Assembly (NCBI GenBank): GCA_017442825.1 | Contig: JAFRYZ010000035.1 | Span: forward strand, 19,809-83,808 | Length of the DNA: 64,000 bases | Direction of reading: 5' to 3' | From: Prevotella sp. | GTDB taxonomy: Bacteria; Bacteroidota; Bacteroidia; Bacteroidales; Bacteroidaceae | Shown: positions 1,378 to 57,940 of the stretch, in pieces | Layout of the letters: every line of letters begins with the position of its first letter | How positions within the stretch are numbered: the stretch's first letter is position 1 | Program-made: the position numbers and the translations under genes | Notes under the pieces: generated by a model | Databases searched by the model: none | Seen by the model: only the letters and a program-made list of their open reading frames with translations | Told to the model about the DNA's origin: nothing

Positions 1378-1689
1378 AAAAGTTGAGAGTCTAGAGTTCT
1401 TGCTCTGGCAAGCGCTTCGCGATTAGAGAGTCTAGAGATGATTACCATCCTTGGTCTAAAGTCTAAAGCTTAAAGTCAAAGGTCAAAGGCCCCCATTAGG
1501 GGGCTTTAATTGTCTAATCGCGCAGCGCTTTGCTTGCAAAGAATTGTGAATTGTGAATTGTCAATTGTGAATTATTAATTGTCAATTGTCTAATCGCGCA
1601 GCGCTTTGCTTGCAAAGAATTGTGAATTGTCAATTGTCAATTATTAATTGTCAATTGTCAATTTGTAATAATTGAACACCGTTCAATTA
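1378..1689. repeat. Gene-free repeat region with heptad arrays and hairpin
   Basis: This 312-bp gap between convergent genes holds no gene. It contains tandem arrays with a 7-nt period: GAGAGTC/TAGAGTT-like units directly after the stop codon, GGTCTAA/AGTCTAA/AGTCAAA units at about 1453-1486, and AATTGTG/AATTGTC units at about 1545-1590 and 1617-1672. The GCGAAGCGCTT-type element is present once forward (about 1399-1434) and twice in reverse (about 1513-1543 and 1591-1620). A GCCCCC-ATTA-GGGGGC hairpin followed by TTTAATT at about 1488-1511 could act as a bidirectional terminator. Confidence 0.75.
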
Positions 1690-2340
1690 TTACAGTTGCC
1701 CTGCCTCCACCTGCAGCACCACCCTCTCCGTCAGTCTGTCCACCCCGTTCGGGTCATACTGTTTCGTCAGGCTTGCCCCGAAGGCCCAGGCGAAAGCCTG
1801 CCAGAAGCCAGCGCGCACCGGTCCCAGAAACGCCTTTATCGTCGTATAAGCCGACGAGTTACACTCGCGGTAGATCAGTTTTATCAGCAGCTTCCCCTGT
1901 TGGTACGTCAGTTTCTTCATCCTCGGACCATAACGCGCCTTGATATCCTTCTCCACCAGTTTCATGTGTGCATCCTTCGCCTTCTTGTCCGGCAGCGTCT
2001 GCAAGTATTCATACGTCTCAATGATAATCTGGTTCGCCTCCTTCGCTATCGGCAGCACCTTCTTCACGTTAAACACCAGGCGGTTATACGCCTGTTTCTG
2101 TTTAGCGTTTTTAAACTCCGGTTCCGGAAACACATACACGTTATTCGTCTGCACATACGGGATAGAGTCCCCCTCATACATCGCCTTGCCAATCTTCACC
2201 ATCGGCACGAACGTCGGATTGTCCATGTCCACCTCCCTGTCCTCAGGACTCACCCGCACAGCCTGTGCCCCTGCCGTCATACTTGCCGCCAGCAGCACCG
2301 CCACACACCCCATCCTAGTCAATACACCCATGAACCACAT
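1690..2340 (-). CDS. DUF4294 family exported protein
   Basis: The start at 2340 (MWFMGVLTRMGC...) gives a hydrophobic signal peptide ending near AGAQA; the frame continues upstream but a promoter motif at 2365-2372 lies only 25 bp before this ATG, so longer starts are unlikely. The mature part contains YNRLVFNVKKVLPIAKEA, characteristic of DUF4294, a Bacteroidota family of about 200 residues with no assigned reaction. It is rich in Lys and Tyr and has no transmembrane segment after the signal. It is divergent from the next gene, with both promoters in a 238-bp gap. Periplasmic location is inferred. Confidence 0.75.
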   Translation of the reverse strand: MWFMGVLTRMGCVAVLLAASMTAGAQAVRVSPEDREVDMDNPTFVPMVKIGKAMYEGDSIPYVQTNNVYVFPEPEFKNAKQKQAYNRLVFNVKKVLPIAKEANQIIIETYEYLQTLPDKKAKDAHMKLVEKDIKARYGPRMKKLTYQQGKLLIKLIYRECNSSAYTTIKAFLGPVRAGFWQAFAWAFGASLTKQYDPNGVDRLTERVVLQVEAGQL

Positions 2341-2364
2341 CCTATCTTTCTTTTTTTCTCGCTG

Positions 2365-2372
2365 CAAAGATA
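2365..2372 (-). promoter_or_regulatory. -7 box (TATCTTTG) for the DUF4294 gene
   Basis: TATCTTTG on the minus strand matches the Bacteroidota TAnnTTTG element. It lies 25 bp upstream of the chosen ATG with a purine-rich leader (AAAAAAAGAAAG). Confidence 0.6.
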
Positions 2373-2489
2373 ATGCAAAGCCCCCACAATCCAAAACATT
2401 TCTCCTCATTATGCCACCTCCCCCGCTGTTTTTTTCTCTCTCGCGTGTGTGAAGACATTATTATATTGTCATAAAAAAACACTCAAATC

Positions 2490-2521
2490 TTTGGCAGAAT
2501 ACATATAGTGTTGTACCTTTG
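2490..2521 (+). promoter_or_regulatory. Promoter (TTTG-20-TACCTTTG) for the HHH protein gene
   Basis: TTTG at 2490-2493 and TACCTTTG at 2514-2521 are separated by 20 bp, the expected -33/-7 arrangement of Bacteroidota promoters. Transcription would begin near 2528, before the ATG at 2579. Confidence 0.65.
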
Positions 2522-2578
2522 CAATGAACATATTGTCCCATGTCGAAGAATCACTGCTCACAACATTTACTCCCTGCC

Positions 2579-4570
2579 ATGAAAAAACTATTAGCCGTAC
2601 TTCTTTTCTCGCTTTTCTGCTACCCGCTCGCAGCACAACAGGAGGAATGGGAAAGTGTGTTCAGTCAACTCATCAACGAAGAAGAAGGTGAAAACTGGGA
2701 AACGAGTTATGATGTGCTCAGCGACTTGGAACAGCATCCTATCAACCTGAATACTGCCACACGTGAAGACTTTGAGCGCATTCCATTCTTAACCGATCAG
2801 CAGATAGAAGAACTTTGTGCTTACCTATATCAATATGGCGGTATGCGCTCGTTTGGCGAACTTGCCATGATAGAATCCTTAGATCCTGTACGCCAACAGC
2901 TGCTCCCCTTTTTCACATATATCGACAACGAACAAAAGGACAAAACATTCCCTTCATGGAAAGACATTGCCAAATATGGAAAACACAACGTTATCGTGAC
3001 GGCAAAAATACCCTTCTACAAACGTCATGGTGACGAGAAAGGCTATTTAGGCTATCCCTATCGCCATTCCTTACGGTACACTTTCAACTATGGGGATTAC
3101 CTGCAAGCTGGTCTTATCGGGGCACAAGATGCAGGAGAACCTTTCTTTGCTAGAGAAAACAAGATGGGGTACGACCACTATTCGTTCTATCTGGTTATTA
3201 GAAAACTCGGGCGACTGAAGGCTTTGGCTGTCGGACGTTATAAATTAAAGTTCGGTATGGGGTTGGTGATGAACACTGACTTTAGTTTTGGAAAGACTGC
3301 CACACTTGCTACCTTGGGAAGAAGCAGTAATGCCATACGCGCCTATTCATCACGGTCGGCAGCCAACTACCTGCAGGGGGCTGCTGCTACAGTAACGTTA
3401 GCGAAAGGTCTCGACTTGACTGCATTCATCTCCTATCGTAAAATTGACGCAACCTTAAACACCGACAAGGCATCTATTGCCACCCTGTTAACTTCTGGTT
3501 ACCACCGAACAGAAAGTGAAATGAATAGGAAGGAGAATGCTTCTGAAACCTGCGGAGGAGGCAATTTGAACTATTTCAAGAATGGATTTCATATCGGCAT
3601 AACGGGTGTCTTCAATCGTTTCGACAAGCCTTTGCAACCAAAGACTACACAGGCGTTTCGCCAATATTATCCTGCAGGAAAGTCTTTTTGGAATGCCAGC
3701 GTTAATTATGGTTATACATCGCGGCGCTTCTCCATCGCTGGCGAAACGGCAACCGGTGACAGTCACGCCCTTGCCACTATCAACCGCGTAAACTGGATGC
3801 CTGTTTCATCCTTGCAACTGCTGTTGTTGCAACGTTTCTACTCTTACAAATACCATGCTCTGCACAGCCAGAGTTTCGGTGAAGGGAGTAGCGTTCAAAA
3901 CGAGAGCGGCATCTACCTTGGAGCGACATGGCAGCCCTTGCGTCGACTAACTTTAATGGTTTATACAGACTACGCCTACTTCCCTTGGGCGAAATATCAA
4001 GCAGCAACAGCATCTAAATCTTGGGATAACTATGTTTCTGCCACTTACTCTGGAAAGAAAGTCACAATATTTGCCCGTTATCAATTTAAAGTTCGCGAAA
4101 AAGACAACAAACAGAAAACCCGTTTAGTGAACGACCAAACCCATCGGGGCAGACTCGCCGCAACACTTCTCTATAACCAATGGACGATGAAGACACAAGC
4201 CGACTGTGCATGGAACCAATACAAACAACAGTCGTTCGGATGGATGGTAAGTGAAAACGTTAGTTGGAAAGGCTGTAAAAACAAACTGCAAGTAGCAGCA
4301 ACCTTTGGCTATTTTCATACAGACGACTACCAATCGCGTATCTTTTGTTACGAACGAGGACCGTTATACCAATTCTCTTTCCCCTCCTACTACGGCAAAG
4401 GAATCCATTATAGCTTATTCGTACGTGCGGATGTGTTACCCTGTATGATGGTGATTGGTAAGATTTCTACGACGAACTACTTCGACCGTGACCACATCTC
4501 CAGCGGACTGCAACAGATTGACCATTCGGCAATGACGGATATGGAGGTGCAGGTGAAATGGAAATTTTAA
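2579..4570 (+). CDS. Helix-hairpin-helix plus beta-barrel-like envelope protein
   Basis: MKKLLAVLLFSLFCYPLAAQ is a clear signal peptide, so I start at 2579 rather than at the in-frame ATG at 2540. After a short acidic segment, residues about 45-100 form ComEA-like helix-hairpin-helix repeats (INLNTATREDFERIPFL and a following GGMRSFGELAMI). The remaining ~550 residues alternate aromatic and polar residues and end in VQVKWKF, as outer-membrane beta-barrels do. This HHH-barrel fusion recurs in Bacteroidota under 'helix-hairpin-helix domain-containing protein'; no function is established. A DNA-uptake role can only be guessed from the ComEA-like domain. Confidence 0.75.
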   Translation: MKKLLAVLLFSLFCYPLAAQQEEWESVFSQLINEEEGENWETSYDVLSDLEQHPINLNTATREDFERIPFLTDQQIEELCAYLYQYGGMRSFGELAMIESLDPVRQQLLPFFTYIDNEQKDKTFPSWKDIAKYGKHNVIVTAKIPFYKRHGDEKGYLGYPYRHSLRYTFNYGDYLQAGLIGAQDAGEPFFARENKMGYDHYSFYLVIRKLGRLKALAVGRYKLKFGMGLVMNTDFSFGKTATLATLGRSSNAIRAYSSRSAANYLQGAAATVTLAKGLDLTAFISYRKIDATLNTDKASIATLLTSGYHRTESEMNRKENASETCGGGNLNYFKNGFHIGITGVFNRFDKPLQPKTTQAFRQYYPAGKSFWNASVNYGYTSRRFSIAGETATGDSHALATINRVNWMPVSSLQLLLLQRFYSYKYHALHSQSFGEGSSVQNESGIYLGATWQPLRRLTLMVYTDYAYFPWAKYQAATASKSWDNYVSATYSGKKVTIFARYQFKVREKDNKQKTRLVNDQTHRGRLAATLLYNQWTMKTQADCAWNQYKQQSFGWMVSENVSWKGCKNKLQVAATFGYFHTDDYQSRIFCYERGPLYQFSFPSYYGKGIHYSLFVRADVLPCMMVIGKISTTNYFDRDHISSGLQQIDHSAMTDMEVQVKWKF

Positions 4571-4855
4571 GCGAAGTGCAGTACATGCGCTTCGCTAATG
4601 GACAATGGATAATGGACAATTCTTGCGCCGCTGCGCTCTGCAAGCGCTTCGCGATTAGACAATTAAAAGCCCCAGGGAGCCTTTAGACCTTTCTTTTAGT
4701 CCTTAGACCTTAGACTTTTAACCTTAGACCTTACTTCGCCCGAGGATGGTAATCATCTCTAAACTCTAGACTCTCATCTCTAGTCTCTAAACTTTCATCT
4801 CTAAACTCTAAACTCTAGACTCTCATCTCTAGTCTCTAAACTCTAAACTTTTCTA
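4571..4855. repeat. Heptad arrays between convergent genes
   Basis: After the HHH gene come AATGGAC/AATGGAT/AATGGAC heptads (about 4598-4620), a GCGAAGCGCTT-type element (4620-4659), a short GCCCC..GGGAGC hairpin-like block, CCTTAGA heptads (about 4683-4733) and a long run of CTCTAAA/CTCTAGA/CTCTCAT/CTCTAGT heptads (about 4756-4853). The last run extends into the end of the GT4 gene and encodes its final residues and stop codon. No gene is seen. Confidence 0.75.
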
Positions 4856-5990
4856 CCACTCTTTCATACACGTCGGCGACTTGTTGGGCTACGTTGTTGC
4901 CGGCGAAGCGGCGGACATAGTCGCGGCTGAGGTCGATGCGCTGCTGGCGTCCGGGAGCTCCTTTCAAGGTCTGGCGGAGGGCGGCGGCAAGAGCTTCGGC
5001 GTCGTCGGGGGAGACGTAGAGGCTGTGGGGACCACCTGCTTCTTCGAGGCAGGAGCCGGTGCAGGCAACGACGGGGAGTCCACTGTTGATGGCTTCGATG
5101 ATGGGGATGCCGAAGCCTTCGTAGCGGGAGGGATAGACGAAGGTGTCTGCCAGGGCATAGAGGACGGAGAGGTCGGCATCGCTGACGCCATGGAGGATGA
5201 CGACGCGCTGCTGCAGGTCGTGGCGACGGATGAAGGTGCGGATGCGGTCGGTATAGGGGGTGCGCTTGCCGACGAGGACAAGGTGGATGTTGTCGGGGAG
5301 GTGCTGCAGGGCTTTGACGGCGAGGAGGGTGTTCTTGCGCTCTTCGATGGAGCCGACACTGAGGATGAAGGGGGAGTACAGACCGAAACGACGGCGCACG
5401 CTGGCGACGGCATCGGGGGTGGCTTCGCCAGAGAAACGGGGAGCGCAGCTCTGGTAGATGACGTCGATGGAATCGGGGGAAATGCCGCCGAACTCGACGA
5501 TATCGCGCTTGGTGCACTCGCTGATGGCGATGATGCGGTGGGCTTCGCGACAGGTCTGACGAAACTTGTAGGCGTAGATCTTGGCATCGAGCCAATGGTA
5601 GTATTCGGGATGGCGCAGGAAGATGAGGTCGTGGATGGTGACGACGGAGGGGATGGCTGCCTGACGGATGCCGCGGGGCAACTCACCGGAGAGACCATGG
5701 AAGAGGCTGACGCCGTCGCGACGGAGGTCGCTGACGATGCTGTGCATGCGCCAGAGGTCGCGCTGCAGGCGCAGGGGTCTGCCGTGGGGATAGACGAGTT
5801 GCACGTTGGGCAGCTGCTCGACGGGCTGCCGCAGGTCGTCGCTGCCTGCGTCGGGAGCATAGAGCAGCAGCTGACTGTCGGGAAGGAGGGCGGAGAGGTC
5901 GGTGACGAGGGTGCGCCCGTAGTTGCCGAGTCCGGTGCGGTTGCGCACGACTCGCTTGGCGTCGAATGCTATTTTCAATTCACAATTCAT
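4836..5990 (-). CDS. Glycosyltransferase family 4 (GT-B fold)
   Basis: The 384-residue protein begins KIAFDAKRVVRNRTGLGNYGRTL, the glycine-rich N-terminal loop of GT4 enzymes, and its C-terminal domain has GSIEERKNTLLAVKAL, the donor-site motif EGFGIPIIEAINSGLPVV and the acidic EGFG glutamate. Such retaining enzymes add mannose, glucose or galactose to cell-envelope glycans at the cytoplasmic face; the sugar cannot be read from sequence. Both ends are made by heptad repeats: the ATG and first residues (MNCEL) fall in an ATTCACA/ATTCATA array, and the last residues KFRV plus stop fall in the CTCTAAA array. The next plausible start inside the family domain is not obvious, so I keep 5990. It probably works with the neighbouring GtrA and other glycosyltransferases. 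Confidence 0.8.
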   Translation of the reverse strand: MNCELKIAFDAKRVVRNRTGLGNYGRTLVTDLSALLPDSQLLLYAPDAGSDDLRQPVEQLPNVQLVYPHGRPLRLQRDLWRMHSIVSDLRRDGVSLFHGLSGELPRGIRQAAIPSVVTIHDLIFLRHPEYYHWLDAKIYAYKFRQTCREAHRIIAISECTKRDIVEFGGISPDSIDVIYQSCAPRFSGEATPDAVASVRRRFGLYSPFILSVGSIEERKNTLLAVKALQHLPDNIHLVLVGKRTPYTDRIRTFIRRHDLQQRVVILHGVSDADLSVLYALADTFVYPSRYEGFGIPIIEAINSGLPVVACTGSCLEEAGGPHSLYVSPDDAEALAAALRQTLKGAPGRQQRIDLSRDYVRRFAGNNVAQQVADVYERVVEKFRV

Positions 5991-6026
5991 AATTCTCTAG
6001 TCTCTAGACTCTCATCTCTAAACTTT
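5966..6026. repeat. Heptad array joining GtrA stop and GT4 start
   Basis: Units ATTTTCA, ATTCACA, ATTCATA, ATTCTCT, AGTCTCT, AGACTCT and CATCTCT run without interruption. The GT4 ATG lies in the array at one end and the GtrA stop codon at the other, so the whole 27-bp intergenic gap is repeat. Confidence 0.75.
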
Positions 6027-6389
6027 TTTAAATACGAACCGGACGAGGAGGAAGTTGGTGGGGACGGCGATGGCATAGACACCGAGGGGTGCCACCTCGC
6101 GGCTGAGTCCTACCCAGAGCCAGAAGTTGAGGAGGGCGATCTGCAGGCAGTAGTTGAAGAGGTGGGCTCCGCCGAAGCCGACTCCGTTGCGCTTGGTGGC
6201 TTTCTCGTGGAAGGTGAAATGGGCGGTGAGGTAGTAGTTGACGAGGAAGCTGAGGACATAGCCTATGGTATAGGCGACATTGACGTTGAGCCAGTGTTGC
6301 AACAGCCAGTAGAGGGCGTAGTGGATGGCGGTGGAGATGACACCGACGATTCCGAAGCGCAGGATTTCGCCCAGGGTTTCTTTCTTCAT
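6018..6389 (-). CDS. GtrA-like membrane protein
   Basis: MKKETLGEILRFGIVGVISTAIHY opens a 123-residue protein with four predicted membrane helices and the GtrA motifs (FGIVGxxxTxxxY; GYVLSFLVNYYLTAHFTF). GtrA-family proteins are thought to flip or present polyprenyl-linked sugars during glycan modification, usually beside a GtrB-like GT2 enzyme; one lies at 9175-10101. I place the start at 6389 because TATCTTTG at 6395-6402 leaves only 5 bp to the ATG, implying a leaderless or near-leaderless mRNA. The open frame upstream consists of repeat sequence. Its stop codon lies in a heptad array. Confidence 0.85.
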   Translation of the reverse strand: MKKETLGEILRFGIVGVISTAIHYALYWLLQHWLNVNVAYTIGYVLSFLVNYYLTAHFTFHEKATKRNGVGFGGAHLFNYCLQIALLNFWLWVGLSREVAPLGVYAIAVPTNFLLVRFVFKKV

Positions 6390-6394
6390 GGATG

Positions 6395-6402
6395 CAAAGA
6401 TA
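6395..6402 (-). promoter_or_regulatory. -7 box 5 bp from the gtrA-like ATG
   Basis: TATCTTTG on the minus strand followed by 5 bp and ATG. Transcription would begin at about the start codon, so the mRNA would be leaderless. Confidence 0.55.
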
Positions 6403-6655
6403 CTATAAATAATTGACAATTGACAATTCTTTGCAAGCAAAGCGCTGCGCGATTAGACAATTGACAATTCTTGCGCCGCTACGCTCTGCAAGCGCTACGC
6501 GGTTAGAGAGTTGAGAGACTAGAATTCTTGCTTTGGCAAGCGCTTCTCGATTAGAGAGATGAGAGTATAAAGTTCCCCCTTTAGGGGGTTAGGGGGCTTT
6601 AATTGTGAATTGAAAATTGTGAATTGTGAATTAAAAGAATTACTTTTGCACCGAG
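6403..6655. repeat. Divergent intergenic region made of repeats
   Basis: From the gtrA promoter to the wecE-like gene: AATTGAC heptads (about 6409-6427), three GCGAAGCGCTT-type elements (about 6426-6456, 6466-6505, 6521-6554), a hairpin block with GGGGGTTAGGGGGC followed by TTTAATTG (about 6574-6603), and AATTGTG/AATTGAA heptads to about 6632. A TACTTTTG-like -7 box at about 6641-6648 could serve the downstream gene. Confidence 0.7.
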
Positions 6656-6669: not shown

Positions 6670-7806
6670 ATGATGATTCCCTTTAACAAACCTTATTGTT
6701 CTGGTCGTGAACTGGACTATATAAAAGAGGTGTGCGGCTCGATGACGATGTCGGGCAACGGTGATTTCACGAAGCGCTGCCATGCGTTTTTCGAACAGCG
6801 TTACGGATTCAGGAAGTGCCTGCTGTGTACGTCGGGTACGGATGCTCTGGAGATGTGTGCGATGTTGTGCGAGCTGCAGCCCGGCGACGAGGTGATTGTT
6901 CCTTCGTACACGTTTGTGTCGTCTGCCATCGCTTTCCTGCGCGAGGGTGCGAGGGTGGTGTTTGCCGACAGCGGTAAGGAGAATCCGAACATGACGGTGG
7001 AAACGATAGCACCGCTGATAACGGAGCGCACGAAGGTGATCGTGGTGGTGCACTATGCGGGCATAGCCTGCGACATGGACGGCATCATGGCTCTGGCGGA
7101 GCGCTACGGGCTGCTGGTGGTGGAGGATGCGGCGCACTCGATAGACTCTTTCTACCGCGGCAAGCCGCTGGGGGGCATCGGGCATCTGGGTGCCTTCTCG
7201 TTTCACGAGACGAAGAACATCAACTGCGGCGAAGGCGGTATGCTGGTGGTGAACGACGAACGATTTGTGCGCCGGTCGGAGATTCTCTGGGAGAAGGGTA
7301 CGAACCGTGCTGAATTCTACCGAGGGATGGTGAACAAGTATGGCTGGTGCGATATTGGTTCGTCGTTCCTGCCGTCGGAGTTTAATGCTGCCTTCCTGTG
7401 GGCTCAGCTGGAACAGCTGGACGACATCCAGGGCAAGCGCAAGCGCATCTGGGACATCTACGACAAGGCGCTACGGGGAAAGGTGGAGGAGATGGGCATA
7501 CAGCTGCCCATGATTCCGGACTATGCCACGAACAACGGACACATGTACTACCTGGTTTGTCCGTCGCTGGACTTCCGTACGAAGCTGATGGGATGGCTGA
7601 AGGAGCAGGGGGTGCAGACGACGTTCCACTATCTGCCGCTGCACTCGAGTGCGTACTACAAGGATTTGTTCAAGGGTGAGCCGCTGGTGAACTGCGACCA
7701 CTATGGTGACTGCCTGGTGCGACTGCCGTTATACTACGAGCTGACGGACGAACAGGCGGAGAAGATAGCACAGCTAGTGGTGGAAGGTGTAAGGTGTATG
7801 GTCTAA
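6670..7806 (+). CDS. wecE: dTDP-4-oxo-6-deoxy-D-glucose transaminase (WecE-like)
   Basis: The protein follows E. coli WecE/RffA nearly end to end: MIPFNKP start, QPGDEVIVPSYTFVSSA, VVHYAGIACDMD, VVEDAAHS, SFHETKN with the PLP lysine (about residue 184), EKGTNRAEFYRG and DIGSSFLPSE. Members are DegT/DnrJ/EryC1/StrS aminotransferases that make dTDP-4-amino-4,6-dideoxygalactose from the 4-keto sugar with glutamate. In this cluster it would supply an amino-deoxy sugar for a surface glycan. The start could be 6670 or 6673 (MM). The last residues, VRCMV, and the stop codon come from a GGTCTAA heptad array. No dTDP-glucose dehydratase is in the window. Confidence 0.9.
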   Translation: MMIPFNKPYCSGRELDYIKEVCGSMTMSGNGDFTKRCHAFFEQRYGFRKCLLCTSGTDALEMCAMLCELQPGDEVIVPSYTFVSSAIAFLREGARVVFADSGKENPNMTVETIAPLITERTKVIVVVHYAGIACDMDGIMALAERYGLLVVEDAAHSIDSFYRGKPLGGIGHLGAFSFHETKNINCGEGGMLVVNDERFVRRSEILWEKGTNRAEFYRGMVNKYGWCDIGSSFLPSEFNAAFLWAQLEQLDDIQGKRKRIWDIYDKALRGKVEEMGIQLPMIPDYATNNGHMYYLVCPSLDFRTKLMGWLKEQGVQTTFHYLPLHSSAYYKDLFKGEPLVNCDHYGDCLVRLPLYYELTDEQAEKIAQLVVEGVRCMV

Positions 7807-7890
7807 GGTCTAAGGACAAAGGTCTAAGGCCCCCATTAGGGGGCTTTAATTGTTAATTGTCAATTATGAATTGTTAATTGTCAATTGCGA
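7800..7890. repeat. Heptad array plus GC hairpin between convergent genes
   Basis: GGTCTAA heptads overlap the end of the WecE-like gene. A GCCCCC-ATTA-GGGGGC hairpin with TTTAATTG (about 7829-7850) follows, then AATTGTT/AATTGTC heptads that encode the C-terminal tail of the convergent GT-C protein. The hairpin is a plausible shared terminator. Confidence 0.7.
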
Positions 7891-9102: not shown

Positions 9103-9143
9103 ATACTTTTAATTATGAATTATGAATTGTGAATTATTTATTG

Positions 9144-11844: not shown

Positions 11845-11849
11845 GGGGG

Positions 11850-11857: not shown

Positions 11858-11960
11858 CGATAAATAATTGATAATTGATAATTGACAATTGACAATTCTT
11901 TGCAAGCAAAAAACTCTAGGCAAAAAACTCTCAACTCTAAACTCTCATCTCTCAACTTTT
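11858..11960. repeat. Heptad arrays in divergent promoter region
   Basis: AATTGAT/AATTGAC heptads (about 11867-11896), a GCAAGCAAAAAACTC fragment of the second element, and CTCTAAA/CTCTCAT-type heptads (about 11932-11957) fill the space between the divergent acyltransferase and LTA-synthase-like promoters. Confidence 0.7.
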
Positions 11961-11976: not shown

Positions 11977-14220
11977 ATGAATTGTATAACCGCGAAGCGC
12001 TTTGCTTGCAAAGAATTAAACAGGTCCGTCATGTCACCGTTGATGGCGGTCGGATGGAATCTTTTCTTGGTATATCTTACGTATTCCATTGCCCGTGTGG
12101 AGTATTTCTTGGAGAACTACGAGTACTTCAAGCACATTCTGCACGAAGGTCATCTGGGAAAACTGTTTTATGGCAGTTTGTTTCTCGACACGCCAGGCAT
12201 TCTCTATACCAACCTGCTGTGGATAGTGCTGATGATTCTCCCGCTACACTGGAAGGAGAACGCCGTCTATCACAAAGTTTGCAAGTGGCTGTTTGTCGTG
12301 GTCAACACGCTGGCGTTTGTCATGAACATGGCAGACTCCGTCTATTTCAAGTTTACGCTGAAACGTACTACAACTTCTGTCTTCGATGAGTTCAGCAACG
12401 AGGACAACCTCGGCAGCATCTTCGGCGTCGAACTGCTGCGCCATTGGTATCTCGTCGTGTTGACCATCGTTGTCGTATGGGGATTGTGGAAACTCTATTT
12501 CACTCCTCGCATCGCCATCAAACGGCAACCGCTGGGCAGATACTACTTGCTGCAAACGTTGTCGCTGGCGGTGGTGGCGCTGATGACGGTCAGCGGCATA
12601 CGCGGCGGATTCCTCAACCACTGGTATCAATATCTGCTGGCGATTCCGCTGCTGTATGTGGCATATAAAAAAAGACACCTCCTAACCTCCCCTATTCAGG
12701 GGAGAAACTCTGATAGCGAGGTTGGGTTCACTCCCTTAACAGGGAGGGTTGGGGTTGGATTCCTGCTCCTCCTTGCACTTCTCCTTCTTGCCACTGCACC
12801 CATCGGCGGCTGGCGCCACCGTGACATCCGTCCTACGGCTGTCAGCAATGCCAACCAATACACGGAGCATCCACAGGAGGCGCCGCTGATTCTCAACACG
12901 CCGTTCACGATGATACGCACCGTCGGCAAGAGTGTCTTCTTCGATCCGGGCTACTATCCCGACAAGGCGGAATTGGCGCGTATCTACTCCCCATTACACG
13001 GTCAAAGGGCGGAGGTCGAAGGGCTAAGGTCTAAGGTCGAGGGGCAAAGGTTGAAGAAAAACGTTGTCATCCTCATCGTTGAGAGCTTCGGACGCGAATA
13101 TATCGGCGGTTTCAACAAAGAGGTGCTCGGCGGGAAATACAAGGGTTACACTCCCTTTACCGACTCGCTAATGCAACATGCCGTCACCTTCCGTTACTCT
13201 TTCTGCAACAGTCAGCAGAGCATCGACGGTATGCCTTCCATCCTCTGTGGCATTCCGCGTTTCATCAAACCTTTCGTGCTCACGCCGCAAGCCATGAACA
13301 GGCTCGGGGGCATCGCCAACAGTCTAAGGGGTGAAGGTTACCAAACGGCTTTCTTCCACGGTGCCCGCGACGGCAGCATGGGCTTCAACGGCTTTGCCAA
13401 CTCCATTGGCTATCAGGCTTATTATGGACGGGAAGAGTTCGACGAAGACAAACGATTTGGCGGCGACAACGACTTCGACGGATATTGGGCTATCTGGGAT
13501 GAACCGTTCCTGCAATATTTCGCCTTGAAGATGACGGAGATGAAGCAGCCGTTCCTCACGACTGTCTTCACGGCTTCCAGTCATCATCCTTTCCAGATTC
13601 CGAAGAAATACGAAGGCAAGTTCCCCGAAGGCACCATGCCTATACATAAGTGCATCGGATATACTGACAATGCCCTGCGCCAGTTTTTCAATACTGCCCG
13701 CAAACAACCATGGTTCAACAACACCATCTTCGTCATGACCAGCGACCATACCAACATGCGTGAACATGACGAATACAAATCGGACATCGGTGTCTTCTGT
13801 TCTCCTATTATTATATACGATCCCAGCGGCGATCTGAAACCCGGCATGCGCGATGCTGTGGCACAACACATCGACATCGTACCCACCATCCTCGGCTTCT
13901 TAGGCTACACCAAACCCTATGTAGCCTTCGGCATCGACCTCTTCAACACACCTGCTGAAGACACATGGGCTGTCAGCGAAATCAACGGCATCTACCAGTA
14001 CACCAAGTACGGCTATATCCTGCAGTTCGACGGACAGCGAACACGTGCCCTCTACCGCCTCACCGACCAGGCAATGCGCCACAACCTCTTAGGCAAAGTG
14101 AAACAACAGGTCGTGGTCAATGGCAAAAGCGTGGACATGCAAACACAGATGGAACGCGAACTGAAAGCCATCATCCAATCCTATATGGACCGCATGCTCA
14201 ACGACCAACTCGTGCCGTAA
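11977..14220 (+). CDS. LTA-synthase-like sulfatase-fold membrane enzyme, copy 1
   Basis: Several N-terminal membrane helices (within about residues 20-280) precede an alkaline-phosphatase-superfamily domain with NVVILIVESFGREY (metal-binding Glu), a nucleophile region NSQQSIDGMPSIL, TVFTASSHHPF and TSDHTN. LTA-synthase-like enzymes transfer phosphoglycerol or phosphoethanolamine groups from phospholipids on the periplasmic side; in a Gram-negative the target may be a lipid or glycan. Three repeat-derived segments lie in frame: residues 2-14 (ITAKRFACKEL region), about 232-261, and eight GG-starting heptads at about 341-360. If the first is discounted, MSPLMAVGW at 12031 is the ancestral start. 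It ends inside the convergent second copy (23-bp overlap). Confidence 0.8.
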   Translation: MNCITAKRFACKELNRSVMSPLMAVGWNLFLVYLTYSIARVEYFLENYEYFKHILHEGHLGKLFYGSLFLDTPGILYTNLLWIVLMILPLHWKENAVYHKVCKWLFVVVNTLAFVMNMADSVYFKFTLKRTTTSVFDEFSNEDNLGSIFGVELLRHWYLVVLTIVVVWGLWKLYFTPRIAIKRQPLGRYYLLQTLSLAVVALMTVSGIRGGFLNHWYQYLLAIPLLYVAYKKRHLLTSPIQGRNSDSEVGFTPLTGRVGVGFLLLLALLLLATAPIGGWRHRDIRPTAVSNANQYTEHPQEAPLILNTPFTMIRTVGKSVFFDPGYYPDKAELARIYSPLHGQRAEVEGLRSKVEGQRLKKNVVILIVESFGREYIGGFNKEVLGGKYKGYTPFTDSLMQHAVTFRYSFCNSQQSIDGMPSILCGIPRFIKPFVLTPQAMNRLGGIANSLRGEGYQTAFFHGARDGSMGFNGFANSIGYQAYYGREEFDEDKRFGGDNDFDGYWAIWDEPFLQYFALKMTEMKQPFLTTVFTASSHHPFQIPKKYEGKFPEGTMPIHKCIGYTDNALRQFFNTARKQPWFNNTIFVMTSDHTNMREHDEYKSDIGVFCSPIIIYDPSGDLKPGMRDAVAQHIDIVPTILGFLGYTKPYVAFGIDLFNTPAEDTWAVSEINGIYQYTKYGYILQFDGQRTRALYRLTDQAMRHNLLGKVKQQVVVNGKSVDMQTQMERELKAIIQSYMDRMLNDQLVP
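12674..12760 (+). repeat. G-rich repeat inserted in the LTA-synthase-like gene
   Basis: The block contains CTCCCCTATTCAGGGGAG and CTCCCTTAACAGGGAGGGT, both inverted repeats, followed by TGGGGTTGG. The protein segment (SPIQGRNSDSEVGFTPLTGR) interrupts a loop between membrane helices. It resembles the elements at 841-882 and 18,821-18,851. Confidence 0.6.
13000..13055 (+). repeat. Eight in-frame heptads in the LTA-synthase-like gene
   Basis: Units GGTCAAA, GGGCGGA, GGTCGAA, GGGCTAA, GGTCTAA, GGTCGAG, GGGCAAA and GGTTGAA run without a gap. They match the intergenic GGTCTAA arrays at about 1453 and 7800 and encode GQRAEVEGLRSKVEGQRL just before the sulfatase domain. Confidence 0.75.
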
Positions 14221-18360: not shown

Positions 18361-18381
18361 ATGCTGTCTTGAGAACAGATG

Positions 18382-18513
18382 ACCAAAGCTTGGTATGAAG
18401 GCGACCAAAGCTTGGTACGGCGGCTACCAAGCTTTGGTATCTGGGCTACCACGTTGTGGTCACAGAACTACCAAAAAGCGGTATTGGGACTACCACAAAT
18501 CGGTAATCCCACC
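18382..18513 (-). repeat. 22-nt palindromic tandem array, copy A
   Basis: Six units of exactly 22 nt each contain a 13-nt palindrome-like core (ACCAAAGCTTGGT twice, ACCAAGCTTTGGT, ACCACGTTGTGGT, ACCAAAAAGCGGT, ACCACAAATCGGT) and a 9-nt linker. The outer ACC..GGT is constant while the centre varies. The array begins 4 bp after the GT11 stop codon and ends 21 bp before the 118-bp module. The 22-nt period is about two helical turns. Confidence 0.85.
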
Positions 18514-29273: not shown

Positions 29274-29310
29274 AAAAACGTTTTATTTATAGCGTCTTTT
29301 TAACATAGAT

Positions 29311-33809: not shown

Positions 33810-33919
33810 GTACGACATCAGTACGAAGCGTTCGTACTGGTAGTTTTAAGTCTTCGAACTAGCAGTTTTAATATCTCGTACTGACAGTTCGGAGCGTTCG
33901 TACTGGTACGTACTGTGTA
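33810..33919 (+). repeat. 22-nt palindromic tandem array, copy B
   Basis: Four clear 22-nt units start at 33,832, 33,854, 33,876 and 33,898 (TCGTACTGGTAG..., TCGAACTAGCAG..., TCGTACTGACAG..., TCGTACTGGTAC...), with a diverged unit at 33,810-33,831. Neighbouring units combine into palindromes such as GTACGAAGCGTTCGTAC. It has the same period and the same position relative to the 118-bp module as copy A, but a different core sequence. Confidence 0.75.
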
Positions 33920-34630: not shown

Positions 34631-35671
34631 ATGCAGCAGAAAAAGATAACCGCAAAGCGCTTGCCCAAGCAAGAATGGATTAAACAGGGTTTTATTGATG
34701 AAAAAGTAGATGTTCCTGCTGGAATGACAGAAAAGGAATATCTGAAGTCGGAAATCAGAAGACTCTGCAAGGAGAAAGATGCTATCATCTTGGCTCACTA
34801 TTATACTATAGGTGATATTCAGGAGGTAGCCGACTTTGTTGGCGACTCTCTTGCGTTGGCTCGTAAGGCTGCAGACACGGAAGCAAAGGTGATGGTGATG
34901 TGTGGTGTTCACTTCATGGCAGAAACCTGTAAGATTCTCTCTCCTGACAAGTTGGTGCTTTCGCCAGACTTGAATGCCGGCTGTTCGTTGGCTGATAGTT
35001 GCAAGGCAGAAGACTTGAAGAAATTTAAGGATGAGCATCCAGGTTATCAGGTGGTGAGCTATGTCAACACAACAGCTGCTGTCAAAGCTTTGACTGATGT
35101 GGTAGTGACCAGCGGTAATGCCAAGAAAGTAGTTGATGCGCTGCCGAAGGATGCAAAGCTGATATTTGGTCCTGACTACAATCTGGGCAACTACATCAAC
35201 AGCGTTACCGGCAGGGATATGCTGTTGTGGAATGGTGGTTGTCATGTACACGAACGTTTCTCCGTAGATGAAATATTGAAACTGAAGAAGCAATATCCTG
35301 AAGCTGTCGTAATGGCTCATCTGGAGTGTAAAGCTCCTATTCTTGCTGTAGCTGATGTGAAAGGAAGTACGGCAACCATGTTGACGTATGCTCAGGAACA
35401 TCCCGAAATAAAAGAGTTTATCGTGGCTACAGAGTCGGGAATATTGCACGAAATGGAAAGAACCTGTCCTGACAGAAAGTTCTATCCTGTTCCGCCAGAG
35501 GTGAGCGAGGGTTCGTTGGGTTGTTCGTGCAACGAATGCGAATATATGAAGATGAACACGTTGCTGAAAATCTATAACTGTCTGAAATATGAATGGCCTG
35601 TGGTAGATGTAGATCCTGACGTTCAGAAAGAGGCATTAAAACCTATTCAACGGATGTTGGAGCTGAGTTAG
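34631..35671 (+). CDS. nadA: Quinolinate synthase A
   Basis: The protein condenses iminoaspartate with dihydroxyacetone phosphate to quinolinate for NAD synthesis, using a 4Fe-4S cluster. Signature parts are AIILAHYYTIGDIQEVADFVGDSLAL, VMCGVHFMAETCKIL (first cluster Cys), AHLECKAPI (second) and GSLGCSCNECEYMKMNTL (third). The N-terminal ITAKRLPKQEW is encoded by the GCAAAGCGCTT element (34,645-34,678), so the original start may have been elsewhere; family alignment resumes at GFIDEKVD. No nadB or nadC is present. Confidence 0.93.
   Translation: MQQKKITAKRLPKQEWIKQGFIDEKVDVPAGMTEKEYLKSEIRRLCKEKDAIILAHYYTIGDIQEVADFVGDSLALARKAADTEAKVMVMCGVHFMAETCKILSPDKLVLSPDLNAGCSLADSCKAEDLKKFKDEHPGYQVVSYVNTTAAVKALTDVVVTSGNAKKVVDALPKDAKLIFGPDYNLGNYINSVTGRDMLLWNGGCHVHERFSVDEILKLKKQYPEAVVMAHLECKAPILAVADVKGSTATMLTYAQEHPEIKEFIVATESGILHEMERTCPDRKFYPVPPEVSEGSLGCSCNECEYMKMNTLLKIYNCLKYEWPVVDVDPDVQKEALKPIQRMLELS
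34645..34678 (+). repeat. GCGAAGCGCTT-type element inside nadA 5' end
   Basis: ATAACCGCAAAGCGCTTGCC followed by CAAGCAAGAATGG matches the reverse complement of the intergenic element (for example 30,528-30,558) in most positions and gives ITAKRLPKQEW. The first LTA-synthase-like gene has the same element in the same reading frame after its start (ITAKRFACKEL). Confidence 0.65.
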
Positions 35672-36052
35672 TTTATAGTTGAAAGTTGAGAGTCTAGAGT
35701 TGAGAGTCTAGAGTTTATAGTTCTTGCTCTGGCAAGCGCTTCGCGATTAGAGAGTCTAGAGTTCTTTCAGTCGCTTCGCTTGGTGTAACCGGCTCTGCCG
35801 CTTCGCTAGTCGAAGAAAGCGCTTCGCGGTTAGAGAGAAGAAGGTCTAAAGTCAAAAGTCAAAGGTCTAAGGCGGGCGGAGTGAATAACGTGAATTTAGA
35901 CTTACTTTAGCGGAAAAAAGTATAAAAACCTTTAAGGTAGATTGTGTGTGTGCGATAACAGAAACTTCGTAACTTACTGATTATGTGGGAGTAAGCTTCG
36001 AAATTCTTAAATTTAACATTTTATAGGGTGTCTGAATAGTTGTAAACTGTTT
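35672..36052. repeat. Gap after nadA: heptads, second elements, then AT-rich DNA
   Basis: The first 210 bp contain GAGAGTC/TAGAGTT heptads (about 35,688-35,720), a GCGAAGCGCTT-type element (35,721-35,755), further diverged copies (35,775-35,836), and GGTCTAA/AGTCAAA heptads (35,847-35,872). From about 35,880 to 36,050 I see AT-rich sequence without a gene or clear signal. Confidence 0.65.
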
Positions 36053-39264: not shown

Positions 39265-41316
39265 CTAATTCACAATAGCTATCTTGCAGACTGTTCCGCT
39301 TTCACCGGTCTGTGTTGCCGTCTGAACCATGTAAATGCCACTGGCCACACGTTGTCCTTTAAGGTCGGTTCCATTCCATGTAAAGGTTCCACCATTGCTC
39401 TTTCCTTCTGCAACGAGAACACCGTTGGTGGTGACAATCTTCACATCGGCATTATAAGAGAGTCCTGTCACGGTAATCAAGCCGTTGTAGTCAGGGCGTA
39501 CCGGATTGGGATATGCATAGACATTGTCTTTTGTCATCTCATCGTTGGTGGCGGTAGCATCGCTCATATAAGAACAGAGTCCTTCATCTGTTCCAAAGAA
39601 CACTTCACCTGTGCGGTCGTTGATAGCGATGGAATTGATGATATTTGACAGAAGATTACTGTTTTCTGTGGTGAAATGGTGGATTTCGCTCAAACCGTCA
39701 CTACTGATAAGATAGACACCAAGACCGTTGGTACCAAACCATTTTCTATTGCCTCCGTCAACAGCGATGCACCTGATATCGACATCGGCCAAGAGATAAT
39801 CTGCTAGATTGGTACCGTCATTACGCGGAACTTTCACTTGCTCGACGATAGTCGGAACAACAGGATTGTAGGCATCGTCCTGCTTGAGTCTGAAAGGTCC
39901 TACATTGGTTCCTACCCAGAAATTGTGGCTCTTGTCTTCAACGACACAGGAGATGTTGTAAATCGTGGACAGTTGTGTTCCGTCTTGGTTCGTCAACTCG
40001 GTATATTCCGTCACTTCATCGTTGGTGGCATTATACCGATAGAAAGCCTTACGCGTCCAACTGTTATTGGTAAACCAAAAATTGCCTCTGCTGTCGATAA
40101 TCATCTTGCTAAGGTCACCCAAGCTGCTGGTGCCCAACTTCATCAGTTCAGAATGAGGAAGAGAGACCCATTGTCTGTCTTTTGTAAACTTGATGATGGC
40201 TTGTGTTGGTGCCTGACTGTTGAGAATCCACAAGTTTCCTTCAGCATCGAACTTCAAGCCTGTGACCAAGTTATATTCTTTACCACCAGGGAAAGCGGGT
40301 TCTATAGGACTGTTGTCTTCATTGAAGAAATTGACGAACTTGCCGTTTTGAAATTCATACAGACCGTTTCTGCCGCATGCAAAAACGTGGTTGATGTCTT
40401 TGGGGTCGTAGTCAAGACAGACTATTTCCTCGTATCTAACGCCTGTTTTCTCGCTGATACCTTCGTCTTGATATATGGTCCAGTTGTCGTCTTTCAGCAG
40501 TTGGATGCAGGCAGGAATGGTGTTGTCGATAATCATGCCGCAGGTATATAACTGCTCGTTGGCAAACTTCATGAATCCGAAAAGATTATACTTCGGACCG
40601 CCGGGGTTCAACGTCTGGACTGTCGCCAAAAGTTCTGGGTCAACGGTCTTACTGCGGGCAACATAGTCCCCTACCCTCTTCCAGTTGTTTTTATCCAACA
40701 AGTTGTCTTTGACATATCCCCGATACAGTCCGTTAGTACTGGATGCAGCATAGATATAATCACCTTCTACATAGCTGTAGTCTACGCGGAAGCCCAAGTT
40801 GTAGGTGTTGGTGATTTCAGCATCCTTTGTATTCAGTTTGATTATACCGAAGCCTGTGGAAATGTAGGCATACTGACCACTCATGTCAATACTGTAGATG
40901 GTCTTGTCAACGGTCATCGATTTACTGTAGTAATCGGAGATGTTCGTGATGTTGCCCTTTTCGTCCAATAAGTCGATGTTGTAGTTTTGATAGGCTATCA
41001 GCAGCTGTTTCGTGCTGGTGTTCCAGGCGATATAGTTGATATGGCAATCGGAAAGTCCGTTTATCTTGTCATAGGTCTGCAGACTCTTGTCGTTGGTGTT
41101 ATAAGTATAAAGACTGTTAGACGCCAAAACATATAATGTATTGCCGCCTTTCTCTACCCAAGTGATATTGTGGTAAGACAAATAGTTTTTCCATGTACCG
41201 ATACTGGCAGCTTGTGCCGTAGGCGATTGACAATTGATAATTGACAATTGAAGATTTATCATGGAGCAAACAATGCCCCACATCAATAATGTTGTGGATA
41301 AAAACAGTCTTTTCAT
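39265..41316 (-). CDS. porZ: PorZ, T9SS A-LPS delivery protein
   Basis: The protein has an N-terminal signal, two beta-propeller-like domains rich in two-component-propeller repeats ([59 protein letters not shown]) and a C-terminal T9SS-type sorting domain ([15 protein letters not shown] ... ASGIYMVQ). In Porphyromonas PorZ sits on the cell surface in the attachment complex and hands anionic LPS to the sortase PorU. Residues about 19-31 ([11 protein letters not shown]) come from AATTGAC-type heptads and lengthen the signal region. Its ATG overlaps the rdgB stop by 4 bp. Confidence 0.85.
41224..41258 (-). repeat. Five heptads in the porZ signal-peptide region
   Basis: Plus-strand units CGATTGA, CAATTGA, TAATTGA, CAATTGA and AGATTTA encode [11 protein letters not shown]. 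The same units fill intergenic gaps at about 1545, 6409 and 11,867. Confidence 0.75.
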
Positions 41317-41918
41317 ATACTTGAATTAAAATATTCAGCCAACTTCTTAACGGCGCGGGCACGATGAGAAATCTGGTTTTTGATGTCGATGCCTAACTCG
41401 GCAAATGATTGATTGTAGCCGTCTGGTACAAAAATCGGGTCATATCCGAAACCTTCGGCACCACTTTTCTCATGAGCGATATGTCCTTCTACTATTCCTT
41501 CGAATGTTTCGCGTCTCTCGTCTCCCGTCCCCCGACTCTCATCTTTTAATATTAACGCAATAACTGTACGAAATCGTGCCTTTCGGTTGTTATTTTCTGC
41601 TAATTCACGAAGCAGTTTCTGCATATTGGCTTCCGAATCGTGTCCTTCACCACCGGCATAGCGGGCAGAAAAGACGCCAGGAGCACCATTGAGGGCATCG
41701 ACTTCCAATCCGGTATCATCGGCAAAACAGCTTAGTCCATATTTGTTGAAGATATAATTAGCTTTTTGCCATGCATTCTCTTCCAATGTCTTTCCTGTTT
41801 CAGGAATGTCTTCATGACAGCCAATTTCGTTCAGGGATACAATCTCAAAGTCTTTTCCGAGAATGTTCCTGATTTCATCGAGTTTATGTTGGTTGTTGGT
41901 GGCAAAAACAATTTTCAT
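41313..41918 (-). CDS. rdgB: Non-canonical purine NTP pyrophosphatase (RdgB/HAM1)
   Basis: [21 protein letters not shown] is the family start (ATG at 41918; the frame upstream is not family-like). Conserved blocks follow: [38 protein letters not shown] and [12 protein letters not shown]. The enzyme hydrolyses dITP/XTP to monophosphates and pyrophosphate. Residues about 124-135 ([11 protein letters not shown]) come from five heptads inserted in frame between beta-strands. It is in the leuS-yitT-rdgB-porZ run. Confidence 0.92.
41512..41546 (-). repeat. Five heptads inside rdgB
   Basis: Plus-strand units CGTCTCT, CGTCTCC, CGTCCCC, CGACTCT and CATCTTT (35 bp) have no counterpart expected in RdgB. 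They resemble CTCTCAT-type intergenic arrays. 35 is not a multiple of three, so flanking bases must also have changed to keep the frame. Confidence 0.65.
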
Positions 41919-54002: not shown

Positions 54003-54022
54003 CATTTGATTTTATAGAACTT

Positions 54023-56644: not shown

Positions 56645-56692
56645 TAGAACATGATTCCACGCCCCCCAAAATTTCTTTATACGAAGGGTATA

Positions 56693-57529
56693 TTAAGCAT
56701 TAGCTTTTCTTTTCCGCAACATACTCCAAACCCCCACTGCAATCAGTGGAATGCTTAGGATTTGTCCCATATCAATGGGCAGTCCGGCTTCAAAAGCTTC
56801 CTGTATTTCCTTGGTGTATTCTATGAAGAAACGGAAGGTAAAAATAAGAGTCAGGCAAAGTCCAAAATAAAAACCTGTACCGACTTTCTCTGGTTTCTTA
56901 TGATAGATATAGAGTATCACGATGAAGAACAGCAGATAAGCGATGGCTTCATATAGTTGTCCGGGATGACGCGGAAGCGTATCTACACGCTCGAAGATGA
57001 AAGCCCAGGAAACGTCGGTGACTTTGCCGATAATCTCAGAATTCATCAGGTTGCCAAGACGGATAAAACAGGCGGTAATGCAGGAACAGATACCGAAATT
57101 GTCGAGAACAACCCAACCGGGCATCTTCATCTGGCGGCAATATAACCACAAAGCAAAAAGCAGTCCGGCAACACCACCATGGGAAGCCAGCCCTTGGTAA
57201 CCCACAAACTTCCAATCTCCGTCTGCCATGTGGCGGATAGGGATAAACATCTCAACGACATGTTCCCATGAAGTTAGGAAATATTGCGGTTCGTAAAAGA
57301 TACAATGTCCCAAGCGAGCACCAATAAGAATACCGAGGAAAACATAGATGAACAAGGGCTCAAACTTGCTATCTGCAATCTTTTGTTGGCGGTAAAGCCA
57401 ACGCATGAGCAAATATCCTATTGTCAGTCCGATAAGCCAACACAAGGAATACCATCGCAACTCGAAATGACCGAGCCGAAAAGCAACCTCATCTGGATTC
57501 CAAAGGATGTATAATAGTTCATAGTTCAT
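56693..57529 (-). CDS. lgt: Prolipoprotein diacylglyceryl transferase
   Basis: About seven membrane helices and the Lgt motifs (RWYSLCWLIGLTIGYLLMRW; GARLGHCIFYEP; ASHGGVAGLL with the catalytic-site His; RLGNLMNSEIIG, the Lgt signature) identify the enzyme that adds diacylglycerol to lipobox cysteines. The ATG and codons for MNYELL come from AGTTCAT heptads, so the usual N-terminus has been overwritten by the array. Several lipoproteins in the window depend on this step. Confidence 0.94.
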   Translation of the reverse strand: MNYELLYILWNPDEVAFRLGHFELRWYSLCWLIGLTIGYLLMRWLYRQQKIADSKFEPLFIYVFLGILIGARLGHCIFYEPQYFLTSWEHVVEMFIPIRHMADGDWKFVGYQGLASHGGVAGLLFALWLYCRQMKMPGWVVLDNFGICSCITACFIRLGNLMNSEIIGKVTDVSWAFIFERVDTLPRHPGQLYEAIAYLLFFIVILYIYHKKPEKVGTGFYFGLCLTLIFTFRFFIEYTKEIQEAFEAGLPIDMGQILSIPLIAVGVWSMLRKRKANA

Positions 57530-57548
57530 AGTTCATAATTCTTAGTTA
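57514..57548. repeat. Heptad array, left flank of the four-helix gene
   Basis: Units ATAGTTC three times, ATAATTC, TTAGTTA. The array holds the lgt ATG (57,527-57,529) and the stop codon of the four-helix-bundle gene (57,546-57,548). It is the inverted counterpart of the array at 57,906-57,940. Confidence 0.85.
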
Positions 57549-57902
57549 TGATTGATCTGTACTTTTGACAATATTTGTTAGTATTTTTATCAGTTCAATA
57601 TTATCTTCAATGATAGATTGGAATGAAGCATCGTCAATATAATCTGATTCATGTAGCAATTCAAGCCAGTATTCAGTTTCACTTGCTTCTTTAAGGGCTA
57701 TGTTCATCTTTGCTCTGAAATCCGGACGGCTCTGGCCGCGTAATGCTTCCTTAACATTGGCGCCAATACTGGTACCACTTCTTAGTATCTGTTTAGATAG
57801 TATATATTCTCTGGTCTCTGCTGTAGTTGTTAGATATTTGTATAACTTGATGATGCGCAATGCGAAATCCTTGCTTTTATTTTTTATAATGCTCTCCTTC
57901 AT
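57546..57902 (-). CDS. Four-helix-bundle protein (S23/IVS family)
   Basis: The 118-residue protein contains SKQILRSGTSIGANVKEALRGQSRPDFRAKMNIALKEASETEYWLELL in pieces matching the four-helix-bundle (TIGR02436) family, related to proteins of 23S rRNA intervening sequences and to Avd of diversity-generating retroelements. Members form basic pentamers that may bind nucleic acid; no biochemical role is established. It sits between ychF and lgt and is flanked at both ends by inverted heptad arrays that provide its own stop, the lgt start and the ychF stop, as an inserted cassette would. No reverse transcriptase is in the window. Confidence 0.9.
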   Translation of the reverse strand: MKESIIKNKSKDFALRIIKLYKYLTTTAETREYILSKQILRSGTSIGANVKEALRGQSRPDFRAKMNIALKEASETEYWLELLHESDYIDDASFQSIIEDNIELIKILTNIVKSTDQS

Positions 57903-57905
57903 ACT

Positions 57906-57940
57906 GAAAACTATGAACTATGAACTATGAACTATTTAAA
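57906..57940. repeat. Heptad array, right flank of the four-helix gene
   Basis: Units GAAAACT, ATGAACT three times, ATTTAAA. The ychF stop codon (57,936-57,938) lies in the last unit and the four-helix ATG is 4 bp to the left. Confidence 0.85.

Follow-up and report, generated by a model that had tools for sequence, protein, structure and literature searches.

Tandem repeats with a step of 7 nt have been described in the intergenic DNA of many prokaryotes, where a survey with SPADE presents them as an unexplained pattern (PMC6344855), and the units named in the passages cited are GGGNATC in Xanthomonas and Nostoc (PMC4692102) and TAACTGA in the Beggiatoaceae, Cyanobacteria, and Bacteroidetes (PMC4679880). 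A second type of sequence, the intervening sequence (IVS) of Coxiella burnetii, is characterized in the cited passages as a selfish element; it measures 428 nt, contains an S23p open reading frame (ORF) and a stem of 28 bp, and is cleaved in vitro by RNase III (PMC4990558). The two types come together in the DNA analyzed here, a stretch of 64,000 nt from Prevotella sp. (assembly GCA_017442825.1, contig JAFRYZ010000035.1, positions 19,809 to 83,808), referred to below as the window. The window contains many arrays of 7-nt units (heptads), two of which form inverted arms around a small gene of the family PF05635, referred to here as the IVP gene. The period-7 intergenic pattern is itself already known, and what is new is the gene with heptad arms.

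The IVP gene and its arms

The IVP gene (57,546-57,902, minus strand) encodes a four helix bundle protein of 118 amino acids, which matches PF05635, the "23S rRNA-intervening sequence" protein family, in Pfam (E 5e-28) and TIGR02436 in NCBIfam (E 1.3e-31), and a profile of 16 of its relatives matches the solved structure 2rld with an E of 2e-46. The left arm (57,511-57,544, plus strand) is an array of four to five units of GTTCATA and the right arm (57,907-57,938, plus strand) an array of four units of TATGAAC, which is the same unit in the opposite orientation, 362 nt away. The initial annotation had recognized both arrays by their period, which holds, as members of a family with unlike units, but they represent a single unit in opposite orientations. 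When the minus-strand RNA is folded, the two arms enclose the ORF and are predicted to pair in a stem of approximately 30 bp, with a z of -5.0 relative to 100 shuffles. The element as a whole (57,511-57,938) is 428 nt long, and is located between lgt and ychF, outside any 23S rRNA gene. No match was recovered from Rfam in the window at the gathering threshold.

The association of IVP genes with arms was evaluated in a first set of 32 genes, from 25 plasmid records, two phage scaffolds, four loci of the genus, and the window. The plasmids were searched with the window protein alone and all 25 records found were included, as were both phage matches, while the four genes of the genus are a selection from the PF05635 listing. 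A tandem array was scored when it lay within 180 nt of the gene, and inversion of the flanks at a threshold score of 14. Arrays were found upstream of 21 genes, downstream of 25, and on both sides of 20, and the flanks of 26 were inverted, in comparison with 6, 7, 0, and 1, respectively, of the 112 control genes of the same loci. By source, arrays on both sides and inverted flanks were recorded in 19 and 22 of the 25 plasmid loci, 0 and 3 of the 4 genus loci, 0 and 0 of the 2 phage scaffolds (both of which are devoid of arms), and 1 and 1 of the single window locus. All the plasmid arms that passed the threshold have a period of 7, as do those of the window gene and of the genus genome G032 (genomes of the genus are numbered G and loci L), and 17 distinct units were counted among 24 elements.

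The misses include L348, where a long inverted repeat is present but no arrays are, L349 and L350, with an array signal but no inversion, and L332, with arrays on both sides and an inversion score of 13, just below the threshold. The start of the gene at L328 was set too early, and this locus was counted as a miss even though its arms are visible by eye, while the gene ends of L342, L355, and L356 were taken from the protein match.

The second set of 16 loci was obtained from viral_contigs by the protein alone, using a scan with an alignment of 16 proteins; a scan of the same collection with a single sequence had recovered no relative. Inverted flanks were present at 11 of these loci, arrays on both sides at 7, and some signal at 13 (L370/L371 and L378/L379 are near-copies), against 8 of 240 mispaired flanks and 0 of 146 random window pairs that were inverted. 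At L364, the arms are inverted AATTGAC/AATGGAC, the commonest heptad family of the window, and arrays of the same family accompany the gene at L368, in direct orientation. Together, the two samples establish a tendency of PF05635 genes to be flanked by inverted heptad arms.

The plasmid carriers belong to the Bacteroidota, Cyanobacteriota, Chloroflexota, Spirochaetota, and Bacillota, and, by the annotation of their records, elements are located between hsdS and hsdR, between DUF1156 and Swt1-HEPN genes, between cas2 and cas1, and between helicase and methylase genes. As annotated, the IVP genes of L330, L337, L338, L343, L349, L351, and L352 lie amid restriction, CRISPR, DISARM/BREX-like, and HEPN genes. 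In a search of the open-licence literature by title and abstract, none of the papers listed ties a four helix bundle or IVS gene to such arrays; the words "four helix" and "S23" are absent from PMC4679880, and the passages of a Flavobacterium genome paper only list a four helix bundle gene, with no link to arrays.

Solo arrays, occupied sites, and empty sites

Arrays that stand apart from any IVP gene were compared with the arms in 41 plasmid and viral-contig loci, in 38 of which the 12-of-14 rule detects one or more arrays at the gene. Of the 28 solo arrays that lie over 400 nt from the gene, 21 have the unit of the local arm within one base, against 11.3% when the arms of other loci are used, although six of the 21 come from a single Dolichospermum plasmid, and local copying within a few kb may be involved. 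Period-7 pairs less than 150 nt apart are inverted in 16 cases and direct in 5. This sharing of units, together with the ORF-less inverted pairs, supports the placing of the solo arrays in the same class as the arms. One such pair in the window (29,310-29,379) consists of TTTAGCG and CGCTAAA around a short loop, with no ORF (by eye; z 3.6). The initial annotation had treated it (29,311-29,379) as one array, and it retains the period of 7 as an inverted pair, of which only the two-copy TTTAGCG arm (29,310-29,324) passes the threshold of Tandem Repeats Finder.

The site between lgt and ychF varies among the relatives. Only G032, among the matches listed, aligns through the IVP region, and it has the gene and the same arms as the window at this site. 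For G068, G075, G010, G017, G011, G061, G069, and G028, the alignments of lgt and ychF leave only 64 to 164 nt between their ends, and, by eye, neither gene nor arms are present in G011 and G075. The lgt alignments of G060 and G080 enter the left array (to query 834 and 851) and ychF resumes directly, a break that, in alignment coordinates only, suggests an array without the gene. By eye, L358 and L359 (from G028 and, less regularly, G069) have a period-9 array, TTATTGGGC, at the same site, with no ORF.

The second site is a DNA cytosine methyltransferase gene, which is split by the IVP element in three Nostoc plasmids (L344, L345, and L346, at about 3925-4390) and is intact in the Nostoc C052 and Trichormus plasmids. 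In the intact Nostoc gene, CAATTCG, the unit of the arm, occurs once, at the left junction. Occupied and empty sites thus exist among relatives both at lgt-ychF and in the Nostoc methyltransferase.

Heptad arrays in the window, the genome, and the genus

The initial annotation had proposed that twelve ranges of the window share a period of 7 nt with unlike units, through one heptad mechanism rather than ordinary copying. The period was recovered in every range, with lag 7 ranking first of the lags 4 to 13 (z 3.4 to 9.0, from 300 first-order Markov resamplings per range) and period-7 rows of Tandem Repeats Finder inside or adjoining all 12. The combination of a common period with unlike units is also supported, in the window and in the genus-wide samples. 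The exclusion of copying is not supported, given that units are shared within genomes above chance, and copying may also contribute. By the 12-of-14 rule, the window has 22 period-7 stretches, against a mean of 0.05 over 20 resamplings of the window, and 0, 3, 0, 3, 0, and 2 stretches at periods 5, 6, 8, 9, 10, and 11, respectively.

The four long arrays of the initial annotation (1378-1672, 4598-4853, 6409-6632, and 35,688-35,872) do have period 7, but are really mosaics of short arrays and GC-rich hairpins. The mosaic at 1378-1672 combines AATTGTC/AATTGTG, GTCTAAA, and AGAGTCT heptads with three hairpin cores, at 1413 (minus strand), 1515, and 1591 (both plus), while that at 4596-4849 has AATGGAC, TTAGACC, and CTCTAAA heptads and a core at 4645 (minus). 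Between the divergent gtrA and degT, 6408-6632 is made up of heptads of AATTGAC and AATTGTG and two cores, at 6443 and 6493 (both minus), and AGAGTCT/AGAGTTG and AAGGTCA heptads, with cores at 35,737 and 35,820 (both minus), occupy 35,669-35,872. The core (TAAYCGCGNAGCG...) recurs at 11,987 and 33,720. In the assembly, TAAYCGCGNAGCGCTT has 107 copies with at most one mismatch, is nearly specific to the species, and is often set in phase within heptad arrays, with a period-7 stretch within 45 nt of 12 of the 28 cores sampled. A 7-nt target duplication around the core was considered, given that the 7 nt preceding it recur exactly downstream in 8 of 28 cases, against 1.6 with the flanks of other copies, but was set aside because in-phase insertion inside arrays would explain the recurrence.

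The shorter arrays comprise CAATTCA and CTCTAGT heptads at 5975-6012, between a glycosyltransferase gene (4836-5990, minus) and a GtrA gene (6018-6440, minus), AAGGTCT and AATTGTT at 7778-7887, AATTATG at 9107-9137, flanked by divergent promoter-like sites, AATTGAT/AATTGAC and AACTCTC at 11,860-11,954, and TGAGAGT/TGAAAGA at 30,484-30,524, where period 14 is stronger. Three stretches had been overlooked in the initial annotation, AGGTCTA at 13,017-13,040, within an ORF, ATTGACA at 41,224-41,252, and CGTCTCC at 41,509-41,534. The genes were called with a home-made program, which assigned at least one to the wrong strand (4881-6416, plus), where the real genes are the glycosyltransferase and GtrA genes given above. 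A second class of repeats, of periods 11 and 22, lies at 18,381-18,440, 25,565-25,633, and 33,831-33,889, and is not obviously related to the heptads in sequence; 78 segments of period 22 were counted in the sample of 24 genomes described below. A gene encoding a BspA-type leucine-rich repeat protein (31,955-33,286, minus) contains 11.8 copies of a 69-nt repeat.

Period 7 is far above the resampled or expected counts in the intergenic DNA of both the genome and the genus, in line with an enrichment, for which the initial annotation had suggested a test. The source assembly has 2.31 Mb in 69 contigs and is 79% complete. In 464 kb of this genome (the window plus 400 kb elsewhere), 55 period-7 segments were counted, 46 of them intergenic, against none in resampled intergenic DNA. 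When two mismatches are allowed, AATTGTC x3 occurs 79 + 92 times across the assembly, and the reversed pattern does not occur. For the genus, 25 genomes were sampled, with 331 kb of intergenic DNA, in which arrays of at least four units numbered 128 at period 7, 0 at period 6, 20 at period 8, and 8 at period 9, with none expected. After segments also periodic at 1-3 nt had been excluded, a sample of 24 genomes yielded 2, 4, 0, 138, 39, 29, 14, 10, 4, and 3 intergenic segments at periods 4 to 13, as well as 76 at period 22. These samples cover 40 to 464 kb per genome, lengths on which the labels of array-rich and array-poor rest. Seven genomes (G003, G024, G026, G028, G065, G069, and G081) had no intergenic period-7 segment in 40 to 60 kb each, which indicates that the trait is patchy in the genus.

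Beyond the genus, 259 kb from 20 genomes of other families contained three period-7 segments and eight of period 10, five of the latter in one genome. The exact 21-mer AATTGTC x3 was found in at least 118 stretches, in genomes of the Bacteroidota, Cyanobacteria, Anaerolineae, Clostridia, Patescibacteria, and Planctomycetota, against an estimate of about 0.1 made here for random DNA of that size. With the search match masked, the 118 loci gave 3, 3, 2, 140, 31, 17, 5, and 2 segments at periods 4 to 11, mirroring, across several phyla, the spectrum of the genus. The common period and unlike units across the genus indicate that something sets the step at 7.

Units, flanks, and turnover

The units vary by genome, with AATTGAC types in the source, AACTGTC in G009, AAATGAG in G034, and both AACTATT and AACATTC in G068. 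An exact unit is common to 144 of 1649 unlinked array pairs within genomes (8.7%) and to 127 of 11,986 pairs between genomes (1.06%; shuffled units, 0.36%), and the proportion matching within one base is 0.281 within genomes, against a maximum of 0.141 in 100 permutations of the genome labels. The flanks of 49 of 165 arrays recur elsewhere in the same sample, in comparison with 188 of 1452 control windows; 43 of the 49 come from G000, G009, and G082. Recurring flanks are few in G022 (0 of 10), G034 (0 of 8), G068 (1 of 16), and G008 (1 of 11), so that some genomes share units across gaps with unique flanks.

Comparison of orthologous gaps, suggested in the initial annotation, showed that arrays are not kept at fixed places. 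In 211 gap pairs, 7 had arrays in both members, 55 in one, and 149 in neither, with approximately 5.5 shared cases under independence (Fisher p 0.45, the pairs themselves not being independent), which implies that the arrays turn over fast. The array-bearing gap was the longer in 39 of the 55 discordant pairs (median +41 nt), but two empty orthologous gaps differ by a median absolute length of 40 nt. The degT gap, where G034, G032, and G001 hold other heptads and G008, G078, and G007 none, is striking, yet with no excess across the 211 pairs it represents an example rather than a rule, and conserved heptads at orthologous gaps were rejected.

A degenerate consensus shared by the units, NTCAMYT, was also rejected (4.5 bits against 4.0 +/- 0.1 in 65 units) because a leave-one-genome-out analysis of 22 collapsed units gave a Kolmogorov-Smirnov p of 0.36.

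Origin of the arrays

The explanation favored here, which is given about an even chance of being correct, is that the heptad arrays belong with IVS-like selfish elements, either as their arms or as relatives that have no ORF. In its complete form, such an element would be a small PF05635 four-helix-bundle gene between two oppositely oriented arrays with a unit of, in most cases, 7 nt. The transcribed arms would pair into a stem-loop resembling the intervening sequences of 23S rRNA, and such an insert could sit inside operons, probably being excised from the transcript by RNase III. The sequence of the unit would be free, conservation being limited to the step and to complementarity between the two arms, and an enzyme would presumably set this step. 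The solo arrays and ORF-less inverted pairs may have originated from such elements, which would be mobile, as forms, either incomplete or decayed, with the same unit as the complete forms of the replicon. A broader proposal, which we consider doubtful, is that the heptamer repeats of many bacteria are the footprints of a single class of selfish elements, in which a four-helix-bundle protein, together with a polymerase or ligase, would act in steps of 7 nt on a stem-loop intermediate and seed the arms from the host sequence of the target, so that the period would be fixed and the sequence free.

The main competitor is replication slippage, a strong and serious rival, even if somewhat less probable, by which the arrays are ordinary simple-sequence repeats and the IVP genes merely sit in them or exploit them. 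A step of 7 nt would be favored by a polymerase contact of about 7 bp, as proposed by Mrazek and others in 2007 and relayed in the cited passages of PMC4692102 and PMC4679880. This fits the hard lower edge of the period spectrum, seen in the genus sample and in the 118 masked loci, and the excess of two-copy 7-nt duplications outside the arrays of array-rich genomes (24, with 7.4 expected). Array-poor genomes have no such excess of 7-nt duplications (5 against 4.2, few events in 89 kb), which suggests that a conserved polymerase is insufficient, and have an excess of 8-nt duplications instead (8 against 0.6, also small numbers). Also against slippage are the units common to unlinked gaps of a genome and the inverted arms around one gene family, the latter of which it would not predict. 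A regulatory role, in promoter spacing or mRNA binding, for which the period would matter but not the sequence, is improbable. By eye, some arrays do have divergent promoter-like sites on either side or take up short intercistronic gaps, and three of six relatives hold other heptads at the degT gap, but orthologous gaps keep arrays no better than chance. There is also no clear strand preference relative to transcription, given that the AATT family divides 17 to 4 in one count, but the overall division is 103 to 88 pairs, which 18 of 200 random assignments reach. The provision of stop codons was considered as a purpose (129 of 138, against 116 +/- 3.5), but arrays that extend over the end of a gene, whose ORF then stops within the array, account for them. 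TACCTTTGCA and TATCTTTGCA, often face to face, rank with the commonest 10-mers in the intergenic DNA of the genome sample, and resemble the -7 promoter box of the Bacteroidota.

Dispersal in the manner of repetitive extragenic palindromic (REP) sequences, by a Y1 transposase (REP-associated tyrosine transposase, RAYT), a reverse transcriptase, or an error-prone polymerase, is very improbable, even though the hairpin core, with its 107 copies, often adjoins heptads. The 79%-complete assembly has no match to Y1_Tnp, which is present in 34 of 60 genomes of the genus with no clear relation to array density, while RVT_1 occurs in 6 of the 13 genomes that are array-rich and 5 of the 9 that are array-poor, and not in the source genome, and IMS polymerases in 22 of 22. 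Each of the 59 other genus genomes has 0-4 copies of the core, and several of them possess their own heptads. None of these three agents, then, fits the density of the arrays.

A number of observations weigh against the derivation of the arrays from IVS-like elements. The arrays are mostly single, and of the same-unit pairs separated by over 600 nt, 21 are direct and 14 inverted. In the four genus loci apart from the window, the strongest arm signal is at period 8, and the loci are not independent, given that L344-L346 represent one insertion, and L339, L352, and L353 appear to be another. At the two sites compared, there is no clean target-site duplication, and no movement was seen; the match of the arm unit to the Nostoc host sequence is one event, the Trichormus copy differs there, and about 314 nt of the methyltransferase gene are gone to the right of the insertion. 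The PF05635 counts, weak matches included, do not track array density in the genus. G010, for example, has arrays and no PF05635 match, G027 has 15 matches and two intergenic heptad segments in 100 kb, and G069 has four matches and no heptad segment in 57 kb, so that the number of IVP genes was rejected as the driver of the number of arrays. In the passages cited, Rehm and others (PMC4692102) report no general association of the Xanthomonas and Nostoc heptamers with mobile elements, and the co-location of 83% of the repeats of one Xanthomonas in a relative, unlike the fast turnover found here.

The existence of one gene family with heptad arms makes the origin of these unexplained repeats testable. 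It would also provide a setting for the PF05635 proteins, which are known from the intervening sequences of 23S rRNA but are annotated in these records only as four helix bundle or hypothetical, and would show that IVS-like elements inhabit protein operons, including those of defense.

Comparison with known systems

REP/RAYT systems and elements of the miniature inverted-repeat transposable element (MITE) type are dispersed palindromes. They resemble the sequences described here in the short hairpins that recur in the gaps, in this case with a TAAYCGCG core, and differ in that this 79%-complete assembly has no Y1 transposase and the core is nearly confined to this species. The known heptamers are similar to the arrays of the window in their period of 7, their largely intergenic location, and their spread through the genome, with many inverted pairs in Xanthomonas, but, unlike the present case, the published accounts, in the passages cited, name no gene with the arrays as its arms. 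The intervening sequences of 23S rRNA share the IVP protein and the complementary ends with the window element, which differs from them in its location outside the rRNA gene and in arms that are tandem heptads of free sequence. The closest likeness in structure is to the Coxiella burnetii IVS, which also has one S23p/IVP ORF in approximately 430 nt, with inverted ends that form a stem, of 28 bp in its cited description and a predicted length of about 30 bp in the window, and both elements measure 428 nt.

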